The translations under genes were made by a program, and so were the position numbers. A model generated the notes under the pieces. The model ran no database searches and was not told where the DNA came from. It saw nothing but the letters and a program-made list of their open reading frames with translations. Of a DNA stretch of 64,000 nucleotides, positions 16,243 to 51,671 are shown in pieces. Source of the DNA: Streptomyces sp. NBC_01463. GTDB taxonomy: Bacteria > Actinomycetota > Actinomycetes > Streptomycetales > Streptomycetaceae. How positions within the stretch are numbered: position 1 is the stretch's first letter; every line of letters starts with the position of its first letter. The stretch spans positions 2,604,001 through 2,668,000 of the forward strand of contig CP109468.1 in the NCBI GenBank assembly GCA_036227345.1, written 5' to 3'.

Positions 16243-16713
16243 CTACGGAAGATGGTGCGCGTCCGGTCCCAATCCGGCAAAGTTCCTTGCCGAAGCGGCA
16301 AACTCGCACCAGACGATCTTCCCGGGGTCCCGCTCCGCCACCCCCCACGCATCCGCGAGCGCCGAGACCAGCAGCAGCCCCCGCCCGCCCTCGGCCTCCG
16401 CATCGGGCTCCGCGCCACGGGCGACCGGGTCGGCCGGCACCTCGCCGTCGCCGCTGTCGTGCATCTCGACACGGAGCCTGCCCTCGGCCCGCTCCCAGTA
16501 CAGGTGCATACGGAACCCGCGCCCCGGCGGCACCCCGTGCACGAGCGCGTTGGTGGCCAGCTCGCTCACACAGAGCAGGAGGTCCGCCGCCTCCACCCCG
16601 CACGCCCACTCGACGAGCGCCTCGCGCGCGAACCTCCGTACGAGCGGGATCGACCTGCGTTCGCGCCGGTAGAACGCCTCACGGAAGCACGGGAGTTGAG
16701 TTGTCTCATTCAT
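16243..16713 (-). CDS. HATPase_c anti-sigma-factor-like ATP-binding protein
   Basis: 156 residues with the GHKL ATPase fold seen in SpoIIAB/RsbW-like proteins: the N box SELATNALVHG near residue 60, DSGDG, and GGRGLLLVSALADAWG. Streptomycetes have dozens of such single-domain proteins, often divergent from or next to XRE-DUF5753/DUF397 pairs, as here. It is expected to bind ATP and possibly sequester a sigma or anti-anti-sigma factor. The ATG at 16711-16713 fits the domain start. It is first in a likely operon with the flavoprotein and methyltransferase. Confidence 0.85.
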   Translation of the reverse strand: MNETTQLPCFREAFYRRERRSIPLVRRFAREALVEWACGVEAADLLLCVSELATNALVHGVPPGRGFRMHLYWERAEGRLRVEMHDSGDGEVPADPVARGAEPDAEAEGGRGLLLVSALADAWGVAERDPGKIVWCEFAASARNFAGLGPDAHHLP

Positions 16714-16824
16714 GAGACGAAGGTCACACACCGTCACTACGGTTGATCAGTGGGTCAGGTCGTACAACGCGGCTGTACGACCTCTGACGGGTCATCCGGG
16801 GGCCGTGACGGGGAGAGGTATTCC

Positions 16825-17646
16825 ATGCAGTCCGCAAAGAGGAACAAGCGCGTCACGTCCTGGCACGTGATCGGCGCCCAGCTCGCCACCTTCCGCAAAG
16901 CGGCCCGGATGACCCAGGCGGCCCTCGCGGATCAGTTCTGCGTGGGCGAGGACACGATCGCGTCGATCGAGCAGGGGCGGCGGCCCCTCCAGTTCGATCT
17001 CGCGGGCCGGCTGGACGAACTCCTGGACACCAAGGGGGCGTTGCAGGTCGCCGTGACGAGGGTCCCGCAGAAGGAGCGGTTCCCGGCGTTCGTGCAGGAC
17101 TTCGTGGAGTACGAGCAGGAGGCGTTGACGCTGCTCTCGTACGAGAACCAGGTCGTACCGGGGCTGCTTCAGACCGAGGCGTACGCGCGGGCGGTGTTCA
17201 ACTCGCTCTATCCTCCCCTGGAATCGGAGGAGGTGGACGAGCGGGTCGCCGCACGTCTGGAGCGTCGAAGGCTCCTGGAACGCAAACCGAGGCCGATGAT
17301 GAACTTCCTGCTCGAAGAGGTCATCCTGCACCGGCCGCTAGGCGGCCGCCAGGTGTTGCGCGAGCAGATCCAGCACCTCCGGCAGTGCGCCGAGCTCCCC
17401 TTTCTCGGTCTCCAGATCATGGAGACCAGGCGCGAGGCGCACGCGGCTCTGGATGGCCCGATGGTGTTGCTGGAGACGCCCCAGCACGATCAACTCGCCT
17501 ATATCGAGGGCCAGCGCGTGAGCTTCCTCGTCGATGATCTCGGTGAGGTCAGCGTCCTCCACCAGAAATATGGGATGCTCCGATCGCAGGCGCTCTCCCC
17601 CGAGAAGAGCGTGCGCCTACTGGATGACCTGCTTGGAGAGACATGA
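16825..17646 (+). CDS. XRE regulator with DUF5753 (WhiJ/AbaA-like)
   Basis: 273 residues. An N-terminal HTH (QLATFRKAARMTQAALADQFCVGEDTIASIEQGRRPLQFDLA) is followed by a C-terminal DUF5753 ligand- or protein-binding domain beginning near residue 90 (FVEYEQEALTLLSYENQVVPGLLQTEAYA). This is the architecture of WhiJ-like developmental repressors, which work with a small DUF397 partner. The ATG at 16825 is preceded by GGGGAGAGG. Its stop overlaps the DUF397 gene (ATGA), as is typical of the family pair, and a HATPase gene lies divergently upstream. Confidence 0.92.
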   Translation: MQSAKRNKRVTSWHVIGAQLATFRKAARMTQAALADQFCVGEDTIASIEQGRRPLQFDLAGRLDELLDTKGALQVAVTRVPQKERFPAFVQDFVEYEQEALTLLSYENQVVPGLLQTEAYARAVFNSLYPPLESEEVDERVAARLERRRLLERKPRPMMNFLLEEVILHRPLGGRQVLREQIQHLRQCAELPFLGLQIMETRREAHAALDGPMVLLETPQHDQLAYIEGQRVSFLVDDLGEVSVLHQKYGMLRSQALSPEKSVRLLDDLLGET

Positions 17647-46101: not shown

Positions 46102-47433
46102 TCAGGATGCGGGCGTGACGCTCGTCGCCCCGGCCGGTGCCGCCTGCTCGCCGGAACGCCCGGCGGCGACCCGGTTCAGGTCGATGTCGCGGGTCTCGCG
46201 CATCGTCAGGTAGACGACCAGGGAGACCGCGGCGCAGCCGGCCACGTACCAGTAGAAGCCGGACTCGATCCCGGCGTTCTTGAACCACAGCGCCACGTAC
46301 TCGGCGGTGCCGCCGAACAGCGCGTTGGCGACGGCGTACGAGAGACCGACGCCCAGGGCGCGGATGCCCGTCGGGAACAGCTCGGCCTTCACACAGGCGT
46401 TGATGGAGGTGTATCCGGTGATCACCAGCAGCGCCAGCAGCGCGAGCCCGAAGGCGGGCCAGAAGGTGTCGGCGTGCTTGAGCATCGTCATGATCGGCAC
46501 GGTCAGGAAGGTCGAGCCGACCGCGAAGGTGATCAGCAGCGGGCGGCGGCCGATCCGGTCGGAGAGCATCCCGGCCAGCGGCTGGACGCACATGAAGACG
46601 AACAGCGCGCAGAAGCTGACGAGCGAGGCGGTCGACTTGTCCATGCCGGCGCTCTTGGAGAGGAACTTCGTCAGATAGGTCGTGTACGTGTAGTAGGCGA
46701 CGGTCCCGCCCATGGTCAGGGCCATCACCAGGAACGCCTCGCGCCGGTGCTGCCAGAGCACCTTCAGCGTGCCGCGGTCCTGCTGCTCGGCGGCGCCCGA
46801 CTCGGCGTACACCTCGGTCTCCAGCATGGAGCGGCGCAGGTAGAACACGATGGCGGCACCCAGCGCGCCGACGACGAACGGGATGCGCCAGCCCCAGCTG
46901 TGCAGGGCCGCCTCGGACATGTTGCGCTGCAGGACGATCTGCAGGCCGAGGCCGACGAGCTGTCCCGCGGTCATGGACACGTACTGGAAGCTGGAGGCGA
47001 AGCCGCGCTTCTCCGGCGCGGAGGCCTCGGTGAGGTACGTGGCGCTGGCCGCGTACTCGCCGCCGACGGACAGCCCCTGGAGCAGCCGCGCCAGCATCAG
47101 CACGGCGACGCCGCCGTACCCGGCGACGTCGTAGGTCGGCGCGATCGCGATGAGGATCGCGGAGGCCGACATGAGGGTGACGGTCAGGGTGAGCGCGGCC
47201 TTGCGGCCCTTGCGGTCACCGATCCGGCCGAGCAGCCAGCCGCCGACCGGCCGCATGAAGAAGCCGACGGCGAAGATGCCCATGGTGTTCATGAGGTTGG
47301 CGGTCTCGTTGCCTTCGGGAAAGAACGAGTCCGCGAAGTAGACCGCGAAGGTCGCGTACACGAACCAGTCGAACCACTCGACCATGTTGCCGGCCGAGCC
47401 GACCCAGATTTTCTTCCACTGCTCTCGTCCCAT
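46102..47433 (-). CDS. MFS transporter, metabolite:H+ symporter (MHS) family
   Basis: 443 residues, twelve predicted helices. The N-terminus GNMVEWFDWFVYATFAVYFA and the loop GWLLGRIGDRKGRKAAL are hallmarks of the KgtP/ProP/citrate-type MHS family; RLLQGLSVGGEYAASATYLTE follows. Substrate could be a dicarboxylate, 2-oxoglutarate, proline or betaine; motifs do not decide. It is 98 bases downstream of tetR on the same strand, with an inverted repeat in the gap, so it may be separately transcribed. Confidence 0.92.
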   Translation of the reverse strand: MGREQWKKIWVGSAGNMVEWFDWFVYATFAVYFADSFFPEGNETANLMNTMGIFAVGFFMRPVGGWLLGRIGDRKGRKAALTLTVTLMSASAILIAIAPTYDVAGYGGVAVLMLARLLQGLSVGGEYAASATYLTEASAPEKRGFASSFQYVSMTAGQLVGLGLQIVLQRNMSEAALHSWGWRIPFVVGALGAAIVFYLRRSMLETEVYAESGAAEQQDRGTLKVLWQHRREAFLVMALTMGGTVAYYTYTTYLTKFLSKSAGMDKSTASLVSFCALFVFMCVQPLAGMLSDRIGRRPLLITFAVGSTFLTVPIMTMLKHADTFWPAFGLALLALLVITGYTSINACVKAELFPTGIRALGVGLSYAVANALFGGTAEYVALWFKNAGIESGFYWYVAGCAAVSLVVYLTMRETRDIDLNRVAAGRSGEQAAPAGATSVTPAS

Positions 47434-47531: not shown

Positions 47532-48140
47532 TCAGCCGCCGGCGGTCAGCGAGTCGTCGATGAACTCCCGGACCAGGGACAGCGCCTGGTCCCGGCCGGT
47601 GCCCGGGAGGCCGACCGCCACATGGACGCTGAAGCCGTCCAGGAGGGCGCGCAGCCGGGTGGCGACGCGGTCGGCGTCCACCGGGCGGAACTCCCCGCGC
47701 GAGGCCCCCTCGGCGAGCAGCGCCACCAGGTCGCGGTGCCAGGCCCCCTCGATCGCGGCCTGCCGGGCCCGGGCGTCGTCGTCGGCGTCGCGCGAGCGGT
47801 TCCAGACCTCCAGCCAGAGCGTCCAGTGCGGGTCGCGGTGGCCGTCGGGCAGGTAGAGACCGATGTACGCGTCGAGCCGCTCACGGACCGTGCCCGGCCG
47901 CGACAGCAGCCGGCGCCGCTCGGCCCCGAGCCGGTCCTCGCTCCACTCCAGGGTCCGCAGCAGCAGCTCGTCCTTGGTGCGGAAGTAGTAGAGGAGGTGG
48001 CCGCTGCTCATGCCGACCTCGCGGCCGAGCCCGGCCATGGTGAGGCCGTCGAGGCCGCGGGCGGCGACGGTGGCCATGACGGCGGCGAGCACGTCCTCGC
48101 GGGGCGGGGCGGTGTTGCGGCGGCGCGGGGCGGGGGGCAC
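47532..48140 (-). CDS. TetR-family regulator of the urease/agmatine deiminase operon
   Basis: 202 residues. HTH near 14-60 (REDVLAAVMATVAARGLDGLTMAGLGREVGMSSGHLLYYFRTKDEL), with the LLYYFRTKDELL signature of BetI-like TetR proteins, and a TetR_C_6-like domain after it. The GTG start lies three bases after the aguA stop, so it is the last gene of a four-gene operon. Its operator is probably the inverted repeat before ureAB. Ligand candidates are polyamines or ureido compounds. Confidence 0.9.
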   Translation of the reverse strand: MPPAPRRRNTAPPREDVLAAVMATVAARGLDGLTMAGLGREVGMSSGHLLYYFRTKDELLLRTLEWSEDRLGAERRRLLSRPGTVRERLDAYIGLYLPDGHRDPHWTLWLEVWNRSRDADDDARARQAAIEGAWHRDLVALLAEGASRGEFRPVDADRVATRLRALLDGFSVHVAVGLPGTGRDQALSLVREFIDDSLTAGG

Positions 48141-48143
48141 GGT

Positions 48144-49157
48144 TCAGACCTTCGGCTGCTGCTGGGTGATGCAGTGGATGCCGCCGCCCCCGGCGAAGAT
48201 CGCGCGGGCGTCGACGAGTGTCACCGTACGGCCGGGGAAGAGGCGGCGGAAGATTCCGGCGGCGAGCTCGTCGCGCGGATCGCCGAAGGCGCACAGGACG
48301 ACGCCGCCGTTGCAGAGGTAGTGGTTGATGTAGGAGTAGTCGACCCACTCCCCGCCGGCCCGCAGCACGGTGGGTGCCGGGACCTCCACGACCTCCAGCG
48401 GCCGCCCCTTCGCGTCGGTCGCGGCGCGCAGCACGCGGACCGTCTCCCGGGTGATCTCGTGGTCCGGATGGGCCGGGTCCGGCTGGACGTGGGCGACGAC
48501 GGTGCCGGGGCGGGCGAAGGCCGCGACGATGTCGACATGGCCGAGGGTGCCGTACGTGCCGTAGTCGCCCGCCAGCCCCCGGGGCAGCCAGATCGCCTTC
48601 TCGGTGCCCAGGCGCGCGTGCACCTCGGCCTCGACCTGCTCGCGGGTCCAGCCGGGGTTGCGCTCCCTGCCGAGCTGGACGGTCTCGGTGAGCAGGACGG
48701 TGCCCTCCCCGTCCACGTGGATGGCACCGCCCTCGTTGACCAGCGGCGAGCTGTGCACCGGGACACCGGCGAGAGCGGCGACCGAGCGGGCGATGTGCCG
48801 GTCGTGGTCCCAGCGGGCCCAGTCCTGGGCGCCCCAGCCGTTGAACGTCCAGTCGACGGCGGCCAGTTCGCTGCCGTCGGTGACGAAGGTGGGGCCGATG
48901 TCGCGCATCCAGGCGTCGTCGAGCGGGCGCACGGCCAGCTCCACGTCCGGGCCGAGGAGGGCGCGGGCGCTGTCCTCCTGGCCGGGGCCGACGACCATCG
49001 TGACGGGTTCGAAGCGGCGGACGGCCCGGGCGACGCGGGCCCAGGCGCGGCGGGCCTCGTCGAGTTCGGCCGCGGTCTCGAAGGTGGGGTTGGGGCCGGG
49101 CCAGGCCATCCAGGTGCGTTCGTGCGGGGCCCACTCGGGGGGCATGCGGAAGGTCAT
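48144..49157 (-). CDS. aguA: Agmatine deiminase
   Basis: 337 residues of the peptidyl-arginine-deiminase superfamily. It converts agmatine to N-carbamoylputrescine and ammonia. Catalytic Cys is in GGGGIHCITQQ at the C-terminus; supporting residues lie in RDIGPTFV, NEGGAIHVDGEG, GTLGHVDIVAAF and WMAWPGPNP. The length matches bacterial AguA. It follows ureC by 14 bases. No aguB (carbamoylputrescine amidohydrolase) gene is next to it; a divergent urease is instead. Confidence 0.93.
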   Translation of the reverse strand: MTFRMPPEWAPHERTWMAWPGPNPTFETAAELDEARRAWARVARAVRRFEPVTMVVGPGQEDSARALLGPDVELAVRPLDDAWMRDIGPTFVTDGSELAAVDWTFNGWGAQDWARWDHDRHIARSVAALAGVPVHSSPLVNEGGAIHVDGEGTVLLTETVQLGRERNPGWTREQVEAEVHARLGTEKAIWLPRGLAGDYGTYGTLGHVDIVAAFARPGTVVAHVQPDPAHPDHEITRETVRVLRAATDAKGRPLEVVEVPAPTVLRAGGEWVDYSYINHYLCNGGVVLCAFGDPRDELAAGIFRRLFPGRTVTLVDARAIFAGGGGIHCITQQQPKV

Positions 49158-49171
49158 GGGAGCACAGGTCC

Positions 49172-50860
49172 TTACAGGAAGTAGAGCCGGTTGAGGGAGA
49201 CCGAGTCGGCGGGCTCCGAGCTCAGCGGGTCGCCGTCCAGGGTGACGAGCCCGCTGCGCGCGTCCACGTCGACCGCTCCGGTACGGGAGTTGAGGCGCAG
49301 GTCGGCGGGGCCGATGCCGCGGGTGCCGCGGACGCCCACGCGCCGGCGCCGGGTCGGCATGGCGTCCGCGCCCAGCTGGGTGGCGGCCTGCGAGACGAAG
49401 GCGACGGAGAGATCGGCGGCGGTCGCCCCGTGCGCGCCGAACTGCGGCCCCAGCACCAGGGGTTCACAGGTGTCGGTGGCGGCGTTCGGGTCACCGGTGA
49501 CCCCGTACGCCGGGAAGCCGGACTTGAGCACCAGCTGCGGCTTGGCCCCGAAGAACTCGGGGCGCCACAGCACGATGTCGGCGAGCTTCCCCGTCTCGAT
49601 GGAACCGATCTCGTGCGCGAGGCCGTGGGCGATGGCCGGGTTGACGGTGAGCTTGGCGATGTACCGCAGCACGCGGGCGTTGTCGTCGCCCGGCCCGTCG
49701 CCCTCCATCGGCCCGAGTTCGGCCTTCATCTTCCCGGCCATGGCGAAGGTGCGGCGGACGGTCTCGCCGGCCCGTCCCATGCCCTGGGCGTCGGACGAGG
49801 TGATCCCGATGGCGCCGAGGTCGTGCAGCACGTCCTCGGCGCCCATCGTCCCGGCCCTGATCCGGTCACGGGCCATGGCGGCGTCACCCGGCAGGTCCGT
49901 CTTCAGGTCGTGAACGGAGACGATCATCCCGTAGTGCTCGGCGACCGCGTCCCGGCCGAAGGGCAGGGTGGGGTTGGTGGAGGAGCCGATGACGTTCGGC
50001 ACGCCCGCCATCTTGAGCACGTTGGGGACGTGGCCGCCGCCGCAGCCCTCGATGTGGAAGGCGTGGATGGTGCGCCCCTCCAGGACGCGCAGGGTGTCCT
50101 CGACCGACAGGCACTCGTTCAGCCCGTCGCTGTGCAGGGCCACCTGGACGTCGTACTCCTCGGCGACGCGCAGCGCGGTGTCCAGGGCGCGGGTGTGCGC
50201 GCCCATGTCCTCGTGGACCTTGAAGCCGCAGGCCCCGCCCTCGGCGAGCGCCTCGACGAGCGGCGCCTGGTGCGAGGAGGAACCGCGGCCCAGGAAGCCG
50301 ATGTTGACCGGCCAGGCGTCGAACGCGTTGAAGGCGTGGCGCAGGGCCCACGGCGAGTTGACGCCGACGCCCCAGACCGGGCCGAACTCCTGGCCGATGA
50401 TCGTGGTGACGCCGGAGGCGAGCGAGGCCTCCATGATCCGCGGCGAGAGCAGATGGACATGGGTGTCGACCGCGCCGGCCGTGGCGATCATGCCCTCACC
50501 GGACACGATGGACGTGCCGGTGCCGACGACGACGTCCACACCGTCGAGGGTGTCCGGGTTCCCGGCCCGGCCGATCGAGGAGATGCGGCCCTCGCGGATA
50601 CCGATCGAGACCTTCCGGATGCCCTGCACGGCGTCGATGACCAGCACGTTACTGATCACGACATCGCAGGTCTCCCGGACGGCGGCGGCCTTGAGGTGGA
50701 TTCCGTCGCGGGCGGTCTTGCCGAATCCGGCGAGGAACTCGTCGCCCGGCTTCTGGGCGTCCGACTCGACCCGGACGATCAGCCCGGAGTCACCGAGCCT
50801 GACCCGGTCGCCGGCGCGCGGGCCGTGCACGGAGGCGTACTCGTGCGGATCGATGCTCAT
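49172..50860 (-). CDS. ureC: Divergent urease alpha subunit
   Basis: 562 residues. The nickel ligands of urease are all present: His134 and His136 (DTHVHLL), Lys214 (GFKVHED, the carbamylated Lys), His243 (ALHSD), His269 (HAFHIEG) and Asp357 (SSDAQGMGR); the catalytic flap His is His317. The flap Cys of standard ureases (VCHHL) is Val316 (SVHDL). The usual GTxATTCTPG loop is replaced by GVGVNSPWA and is three residues shorter, and HEDWG reads HEDMG. No ureDEFG accessory genes are nearby. It overlaps ureAB (ATGA) and is followed closely by aguA. Activity on free urea is therefore uncertain. Confidence 0.9.
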   Translation of the reverse strand: MSIDPHEYASVHGPRAGDRVRLGDSGLIVRVESDAQKPGDEFLAGFGKTARDGIHLKAAAVRETCDVVISNVLVIDAVQGIRKVSIGIREGRISSIGRAGNPDTLDGVDVVVGTGTSIVSGEGMIATAGAVDTHVHLLSPRIMEASLASGVTTIIGQEFGPVWGVGVNSPWALRHAFNAFDAWPVNIGFLGRGSSSHQAPLVEALAEGGACGFKVHEDMGAHTRALDTALRVAEEYDVQVALHSDGLNECLSVEDTLRVLEGRTIHAFHIEGCGGGHVPNVLKMAGVPNVIGSSTNPTLPFGRDAVAEHYGMIVSVHDLKTDLPGDAAMARDRIRAGTMGAEDVLHDLGAIGITSSDAQGMGRAGETVRRTFAMAGKMKAELGPMEGDGPGDDNARVLRYIAKLTVNPAIAHGLAHEIGSIETGKLADIVLWRPEFFGAKPQLVLKSGFPAYGVTGDPNAATDTCEPLVLGPQFGAHGATAADLSVAFVSQAATQLGADAMPTRRRRVGVRGTRGIGPADLRLNSRTGAVDVDARSGLVTLDGDPLSSEPADSVSLNRLYFL

Positions 50861-51537
50861 CGTGCCGCTCCCAGGTATCCGCAGGCCGCCGCGCGCCGCA
50901 GCGCCTCCTCGCGTGCGCCGGGGGCGTCGAGCGGTCCGTCGACCAGCCCGGCGAACCCGATCGCGACGCGGTCGCCGCCGATGGGCACGAGGCCCACCTC
51001 GGCCGACTCCCCCGGTCCGAAGCGGGCGGAGGAGCCCGCGGGCACGCAGAGCCGCATGCCGTACGCCGCGGCCCGGTCGAAGTCGAGCCGCGGGTTGGCC
51101 TCGAAGAAGTGGAAGTGCGAGGTCACGGAGACGGGGACGGTCGCGGTGTTGTGGACGGTCAGCCGCAGCACGGGCTCCGGCCCGGGCGTCGCGGGTCCGG
51201 GGACGACGGCGCCGGGCGCCTCGTCGCCGAGGCCCTCGCCCAGTGGCCGGGAGACCACGGCGAGCCGCGAACCGTCGTCGAAGACGGCCTCCACATGGAC
51301 CTCGGTGACGACGTCGGCGACCCCGGGCAGCACATCGTCCGGGCCCAGCACCCGGCGCGCGGCCTCGATCGCCTCGGCGAGCCGGCGCCCGTCGCGGGCG
51401 GCCTCGCAGACGGTGTCCGCGATCAGGGCGGTGGCCTCGGGGACGTTGAGCCTCAGCCCGCGGGCCCGGCGGGCCCGGGCCAGCTCGGCGGCGCCGAAGA
51501 GCAGCAGCCGGTCGCGTTCGGTCGGGGTCAGTCGCAC
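50857..51537 (-). CDS. ureA: Fused urease gamma-beta subunit
   Basis: 226 residues. Residues 1-100 are UreA-like (MRLTPTERDRLLLFGAAELARARRARG... VLPGVADVVTEVHVEAVFDDGSRLV), and about 120-226 are UreB-like (VTSHFHFFEANPRLDFDRAAAYGMRL, a conserved core). Such UreAB fusions are known from Helicobacter and from second urease sets of actinomycetes. First gene of the operon; the GTG at 51535-51537 has AGGAGGTG upstream and the operator sits 14 bases before it. Confidence 0.93.
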   Translation of the reverse strand: MRLTPTERDRLLLFGAAELARARRARGLRLNVPEATALIADTVCEAARDGRRLAEAIEAARRVLGPDDVLPGVADVVTEVHVEAVFDDGSRLAVVSRPLGEGLGDEAPGAVVPGPATPGPEPVLRLTVHNTATVPVSVTSHFHFFEANPRLDFDRAAAYGMRLCVPAGSSARFGPGESAEVGLVPIGGDRVAIGFAGLVDGPLDAPGAREEALRRAAACGYLGAAR

Positions 51538-51550
51538 GTCGTCGCACCTC

Positions 51551-51575
51551 CTGGTTAGAGCAGCACTCTAACCAG
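51551..51575. promoter_or_regulatory. Operator of the ureAB-ureC-aguA-tetR operon
   Basis: Perfect inverted repeat with 10-bp arms CTGGTTAGAG and CTCTAACCAG and a 5-base spacer, directly upstream of the ribosome site of ureAB. Its position, overlapping the probable transcription start, and the TetR gene at the operon end suggest autorepression. Confidence 0.7.
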
Positions 51576-51638: not shown

Positions 51639-51671
51639 AAAAAAAGGCCGCGCCCCCGGGGGCGCGGCCTT
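51639..51671 (-). terminator. Rho-independent terminator of ilvE
   Basis: 28-base perfect palindrome (AAGGCCGCGCCCCC and complement, 51644-51671) followed on the minus strand by a run of seven T (51639-51645). Strongest canonical terminator in the window. Confidence 0.9.

Follow-up and report, generated by a model that had tools for sequence, protein, structure and literature searches.

A remodelled urease encoded with an AguA-family deiminase in Streptomyces as a candidate ureido hydrolase in the place of AguB

What does a urease hydrolyse when its genes stand beside an agmatine deiminase-family gene and apart from the urease accessory genes? The question is raised by an operon in Streptomyces sp. 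NBC_01463, within a 64,000-nucleotide stretch (contig CP109468.1, positions 2,604,001–2,668,000; hereafter the window) of a genome of 9,071,628 bases in two contigs. Urease is, to our knowledge, regarded as having a single natural substrate. The step after AguA is carried out in known systems by a nitrilase or a transcarbamylase. A sequence-only reading of the locus had proposed that an altered urease replaces the nitrilase AguB and hydrolyses N-carbamoylputrescine made by AguA. Comparative analysis strongly supports a ureido hydrolase in the place of AguB, with N-carbamoylputrescine as the likeliest but not the sole candidate substrate.

The genes lie on the reverse strand. A fused urease gamma/beta subunit gene, ureAB (50857–51537; PRK13192, 314.7 bits, cut-off 243), overlaps the alpha subunit gene ureC (49172–50860) by 4 bases. 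The aguA-like gene (48144–49157) follows after 14 bases and tetR (47532–48140) after 3 more, and these ORF coordinates bear out the tight ureAB-ureC-aguA-tetR operon described earlier. An MHS-type metabolite/H+ symporter gene (46102–47433; TIGR00883, 404.8 bits, cut-off 443.45) lies 98 bases beyond tetR on the same strand and is possibly the last gene of the unit. Flanking genes include ilvE and leuB upstream and a citramalate synthase gene downstream. A terminator-like hairpin with a T run (51644–51671, reverse strand; 14-bp perfect inverted repeat) separates ilvE from ureAB. Accessory genes are absent nearby, as first noticed, and the three UreD genes of the genome are all outside the window.

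The ureC product scores 748 bits against PRK13207 (cut-off 354) and 646.2 bits against TIGR01792, the urease alpha equivalog model, below the cut-off of 680. It belongs to a separate clade, group A, whose other members are 78–94% identical to it; canonical ureases are ~47% identical. Residue columns are given in Sporosarcina pasteurii numbering, and the positions compared are those of the metal ligands with the carbamylated Lys and of the His and Arg that take part in catalysis. Positions H137, H139, K220, H222, H249, H275, D363, H323, and R339 are invariant in all 43 group-A rows, which represent 42 places because the window protein is counted twice. Flap Cys322 is replaced by Val (38 rows) or Ala (5), and position 324, His in canonical ureases, holds Asp in 39 rows, Gly in two, and Gln and Ala in one each. 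Trp225 of the HEDWG motif is Met in 42 rows and Leu in one, and Ala366 is Gly in 43/43. The canonical Ala170 loop, GGGTGPxxGTxATTxTPG, is shorter in the window protein and reads GQEFGPVWGVGVNS. The columns thus agree with what had been read from the single sequence: metal ligands and flap His kept, flap Cys changed to Val, HEDWG changed to HEDMG, and a shortened, changed loop.

An AlphaFold2 model (pLDDT 86.2, pTM 0.91; mean pLDDT 68 over the remodelled loop, residues 161–170) aligned to Klebsiella aerogenes urease (1ejt) and others with a TM-score of 0.95, and the modelling step of the structural check that had been proposed confirms a predicted urease fold. Fold, subunits, and the nine metal and catalytic positions are common to the window's UreABC and to urease (EC 3.5.1.5) of K. 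aerogenes and S. pasteurii. The window's enzyme differs in the flap Cys, the HEDWG Trp, Ala366, and the Ala170 loop, in an operon without accessory genes, and in its constant place beside AguA. The flap Cys is not known to be essential in K. aerogenes. That the changes are so uniform, while the metal site they surround is conserved, suggests a new substrate and not decay. The flap acid, present in most but not all group-A rows, could hold a cationic tail. Phenylurea hydrolase B (4whb), which presumably acts on a substituted urea, as its molecule name indicates, is a distant superfamily relative with a weak match (E 3.4e-4) over only ~35 aligned residues. Unlike the window's UreC, it and other amidohydrolases of the superfamily are not members of the urease family.

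Group A is discrete. Across the window's genome and 60 relatives, UreC matches fell into two classes, 27 at 79–100% identity and the rest at 43–50%. The window's genome encodes four ureC genes, three of which are ~46–47% identical to the group-A gene and have UreD close by; a whole-genome check for canonical ure sets, suggested at the outset, returned three canonical ureases. An AguA-family gene was found within ~1.1 kb of ureC, mostly within 150 bases, at all 42 group-A places drawn from these genomes and from a 396-genome phylum sample. No AguA-family gene was present in the fetched flanks of 81 other ureases. These comprised 63 controls (0/63), which were all ureases outside group C in the group C scan described below, whatever their flap, and 18 canonical or near-canonical rows (0/18), some with short flanks. 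In the phylum sample, 15/15 genomes with a group-A UreC also encode the window-type AguA. Five same-genus genomes lack a group-A UreC, and four of them also show no match to AguA. In the fifth (G161), which has a 217.8-bit nitrilase on a different contig, the contig that carries AguA stops at that gene. At one group-A locus (L060) the genes are arranged differently, and the AguA clusters with AguA proteins that are paired with a nitrilase. At three others (L054, L055, L168), group-A UreC is paired with an AguA of a different subfamily. AguA paralogues with a DITDxH motif (L054:2220–4396, L055:10134–11126, L168:4423–5403 and 16254–17264) sit at these loci, which carry a second group-A urease.

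Several further UreC variants were encountered. The canonical UreC of G219 (C1:445412–448932) is split into two matches, one of which contains an internal stop; that genome may thus have no intact UreC other than its group-A protein. Canonical-type UreC frames of 695–896 aa in G019 (L206:6975–8921), G036, G239, and G440 align to the query in three separate segments, a pattern that insertions would give. A UreC at L203:6795–8489 has Val for the flap Cys, a canonical loop, and flanks without AguA.

The genes that adjoin AguA where group-A UreC is missing indicate the position that UreABC fills. In sixteen phylum-sample genomes, AguA is full-length and shares 50% or more identity with that of the window, and group-A UreC is lacking. 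With the contig-end case (G161) left out, a candidate ureido hydrolase adjoins AguA in 15/15; these partners were assigned by tblastn and profile-checked in 7/15. Neighbouring genes at the compared loci were called with a simple ORF picker that leaves some frames or starts wrong. Seven loci (L150, L151, L152, L154, L155, L158, L160) have a nitrilase of a second type, at 173–220 bits against an AguB cut-off of 410.25. AguB above that cut-off is present at two (L163, 425.9 bits; L164, 457.8 bits), and also beside more distant AguA genes (L166, L176, L182, L184). The other six (L153, L156, L157, L159, L161, L162) have a PRK06565-type amidase, which may be a further ureido hydrolase. Since close aguA genes without group-A ureC adjoin a nitrilase, AguB, or this amidase, UreABC is, judged by gene neighbourhood, in the ureido-hydrolase position beside AguA. 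A tree of 57 of the 68 AguA rows (near-copies, fragments, and a few others dropped) requires a minimum of nine partner changes, and one of the five changes in the group-A label is the contig-end row of G161. Repeated pairing of this kind is difficult to account for unless a reaction is shared.

AguB above its cut-off is encoded by 10/396 phylum-sample genomes and by 0/15 of those with a group-A UreC. A search for aguB elsewhere had been named as a check on the proposal; a profile search of the window's genome returned none above 410.25. Its best-scoring nitrilase, at 261.9 bits, was rejected as AguB because a gene of 255–263 bits is present in all 20 same-genus genomes in the phylum sample, including four without an AguA match. 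AguA and AguB are agmatine deiminase and N-carbamoylputrescine amidase, as in Pseudomonas aeruginosa (PMC9397018). The window's system has in common with that route an AguA-family first enzyme, and has UreABC where relatives keep AguB. Its second enzyme is a urease homologue and not a nitrilase, so that the two second enzymes share position alone.

The fixed pairing with AguA, the partner exchange, the absence of AguB above its cut-off from 15/15 genomes, and the separate canonical ureases together underlie the proposal that UreABC stands in for AguB. In the route that we infer, the AguA-family enzyme would turn a guanidino group into a ureido (N-carbamoyl) one by deimination. UreAB-UreC, matured with nickel by UreD, UreF, and UreG made elsewhere in the genome, would then hydrolyse the ureido group to an amine, CO2, and ammonia, in place of AguB. 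The likeliest compounds would be agmatine, N-carbamoylputrescine, and putrescine. We consider it fairly probable that such a two-step guanidino-to-amine route operates, with a nickel enzyme of urease fold acting on the N-carbamoyl product of AguA, most likely N-carbamoylputrescine. If so, a UreABC complex would have a physiological substrate other than urea, and the step after AguA would gain a new enzyme class, an amidase also being suggested here. How the specificity of urease can shift would be illustrated by a clade that combines an unaltered metal site with a rebuilt pocket and a constant metabolic partner. Annotation of the second ureases of Streptomyces, now counted as urea-hydrolysing, would be corrected.

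No report of an AguA-urease partnership was found in the open-access literature searched. The attachment of SCO5526–SCO5524 to nrdABS in PMC4991794 was set aside as a probable misprint. PMC2492869 describes ure(AB)C-only clusters in Streptomyces coelicolor and S. avermitilis, with UreC near those of Bradyrhizobium BTAi1 and Pseudomonas syringae. From names and order, these clusters are very probably orthologues of the window genes. In PMC3293853, SCO5525–5526 are ureABC, SCO5527 is among homologues of the arginine decarboxylase pathway, and none of these is affected by ArgR or arginine. The clusters are treated as ureases in the portions of PMC2492869 and PMC3293853 available, where AguA is not mentioned as a partner, and are counted as ureolysis genes in that of PMC5489568.

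The group-A enzyme could be an ordinary urea-hydrolysing urease, with AguA freeing urea from guanidine or serving general nitrogen scavenging. The urease fold (TM-score to the K. aerogenes enzyme given above) and the full set of metal ligands are consistent with that reading, and PMC3293853 and PMC5489568 place such genes among those for the use of urea. However, flap and loop are rebuilt in 43/43 rows, and canonical ureases are encoded in the same genome. Relatives also hold AguB or the second-type nitrilase in the same place. Neither of these nitrilases is known as a urea hydrolase. An Rfam search of the window and six related loci for a guanidine riboswitch, which a guanidine route might have led one to look for, returned none; its only hit was a tRNA in L170. 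We regard ordinary ureolysis as quite unlikely.

The accessory genes bear on the metal. A comparison of 14 hand-chosen genomes included three (G040, G045, G047) in which the group-A UreC is the sole UreC match. At a locus apart from that of ureC, each encodes UreD above cut-off and has a match to UreG, which in G040 is below its cut-off. The accessory set of G045, the only genome in which UreF was looked at, is UreF-UreG-UreD. Of the two UreG-UreD pairs in G044, which encodes both a canonical and a group-A UreC, one adjoins the canonical ureC and the other lies elsewhere. UreD and UreG were absent from G031 and G043, both of which lack UreC. Retention of UreD and UreG where group-A UreC stands alone argues for nickel maturation, and the accessory proteins are probably kept for the group-A enzyme. 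A protein that lacks nickel or has no hydrolase activity would account for the lack of accessory genes beside the operon and the loss of the flap Cys. The retention of every ligand in 43/43 rows and the UreD and UreG matches in the three genomes with group A only make an inactive or nickel-free enzyme very improbable. A second UreD-like gene (122.8 bits) was observed at L128 (G023:C1:5924075–5924665), in a genome that encodes two UreC proteins, one of them canonical and the other of group A. Substrate-binding proteins with weak, sub-cut-off similarity to the nickel-binding protein NikA are encoded near modified ureases at L169:2442–4265 and L054:10783–12597.

The earlier assignment of N-carbamoylputrescine as the AguA product agrees with the enzyme family and is less secure as to the exact compound. 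The aguA-like gene (PF04371, 380.5 bits) is the sole member of that family in the genome, and its product keeps the family fold and the catalytic Cys, His, and Asp. Against TIGR03380, the curated agmatine deiminase model, it scores 302.0 bits, below the cut-off of 381.8; the AguA genes scanned beside AguB (L163, L164, L166) are all below this cut-off too. In the Medicago truncatula enzyme, Asp220 binds the amine of agmatine and loop 291–314 closes the site (PMC6447857). The window's AguA subfamily has Gly at the Asp220 position, with an insertion, lacks the gate loop, and often has Arg near the active site. An agmatinase-type gene is encoded elsewhere in the window's genome (234.2 bits, cut-off 174.3), and the transporters beside the operon are of MHS or NCS1 types and not polyamine types. 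The altered AguA site, the sub-cut-off score, the agmatinase-type gene, and the transporters make the two-step logic firmer than the identity of the compound. The same two steps could thus act on another guanidino compound, such as a guanidino acid, with UreABC hydrolysing a ureido compound other than N-carbamoylputrescine. The changed substrate end of AguA with its frequent Arg, the transporter types, and the agmatinase-type gene would fit such a compound, but AguA of the same subfamily stands beside AguB above cut-off (L163, L164), and at L054, L055, and L168 the partner of group-A UreC is from an AguA subfamily in which the acid is retained. We hold this alternative to be unlikely; N-carbamoylputrescine is the likeliest substrate of UreABC and not the sole candidate.

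The tetR product is BetI-like (68.2 bits against the BetI model, cut-off 201.3) and is the probable regulator. A perfect 10-bp inverted repeat with a 5-base spacer, 5′ of ureAB (51551–51575), is the candidate operator. It is the one match in the window, where none was expected, and its outer end, 51575, is also the end point given for the locus by the sequence-only reading. The core TTAGAG-N5-CTCTAA, with at most one mismatch, precedes ureAB at 16 of the 24 loci compared. It is present at 16/16 loci with a TetR orthologue and 0/8 without one. At L064, L066, and L175, the best match is farther out, at −61 to −119. TetR would probably control the operon through this palindrome. An NCS1-type permease gene is transcribed divergently from ureAB at 12 of the 16 TetR loci, and the MHS transporter gene is present at 6 of them.

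Other UreC proteins with a changed flap and loop form groups B, C, and D. In a quick tree of 38 of the 54 UreC rows (near-copies, fragments, and a few others omitted), groups A–D fall on one side of a branch (21/38 rows, SH-aLRT 99). There is perhaps an even chance that the window's enzyme is a nickel urease homologue with N-carbamoylputrescine as its natural substrate, and that it is one branch of a larger clade of urease-fold hydrolases for N-substituted ureas comprising groups A–D. The idea that all modified ureases are tied to AguA was rejected, as groups B–D are mostly not beside it. AguA is linked to group B in 1/2, to group C in 2/7 genomes (8 rows), and to group D in 1/1, where it lies 7.3 kb off with its own nitrilase. 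Members of group C were located in Actinomycetota, Pseudonocardia acaciae among them, and in Chloroflexota and Dormiibacterota. In a scan of 17 group C loci, several with short flanks and two (L210, L219) apparently the same records as L190 and L204, an AguA-family gene was found at 2/17, 3.4 and 6.4 kb from ureAB. Neither UreF nor UreG was present in the retrieved flanks of the 17 group C loci, whereas UreF or UreG was found at 62/63 other loci. No recurrent enzyme other than UreAB was found among the group C neighbours. At L189:4536–10217, polyamine transporter genes, PotA (above cut-off) and PotD-like and PotB-like genes (below their cut-offs), come after a group C urease.
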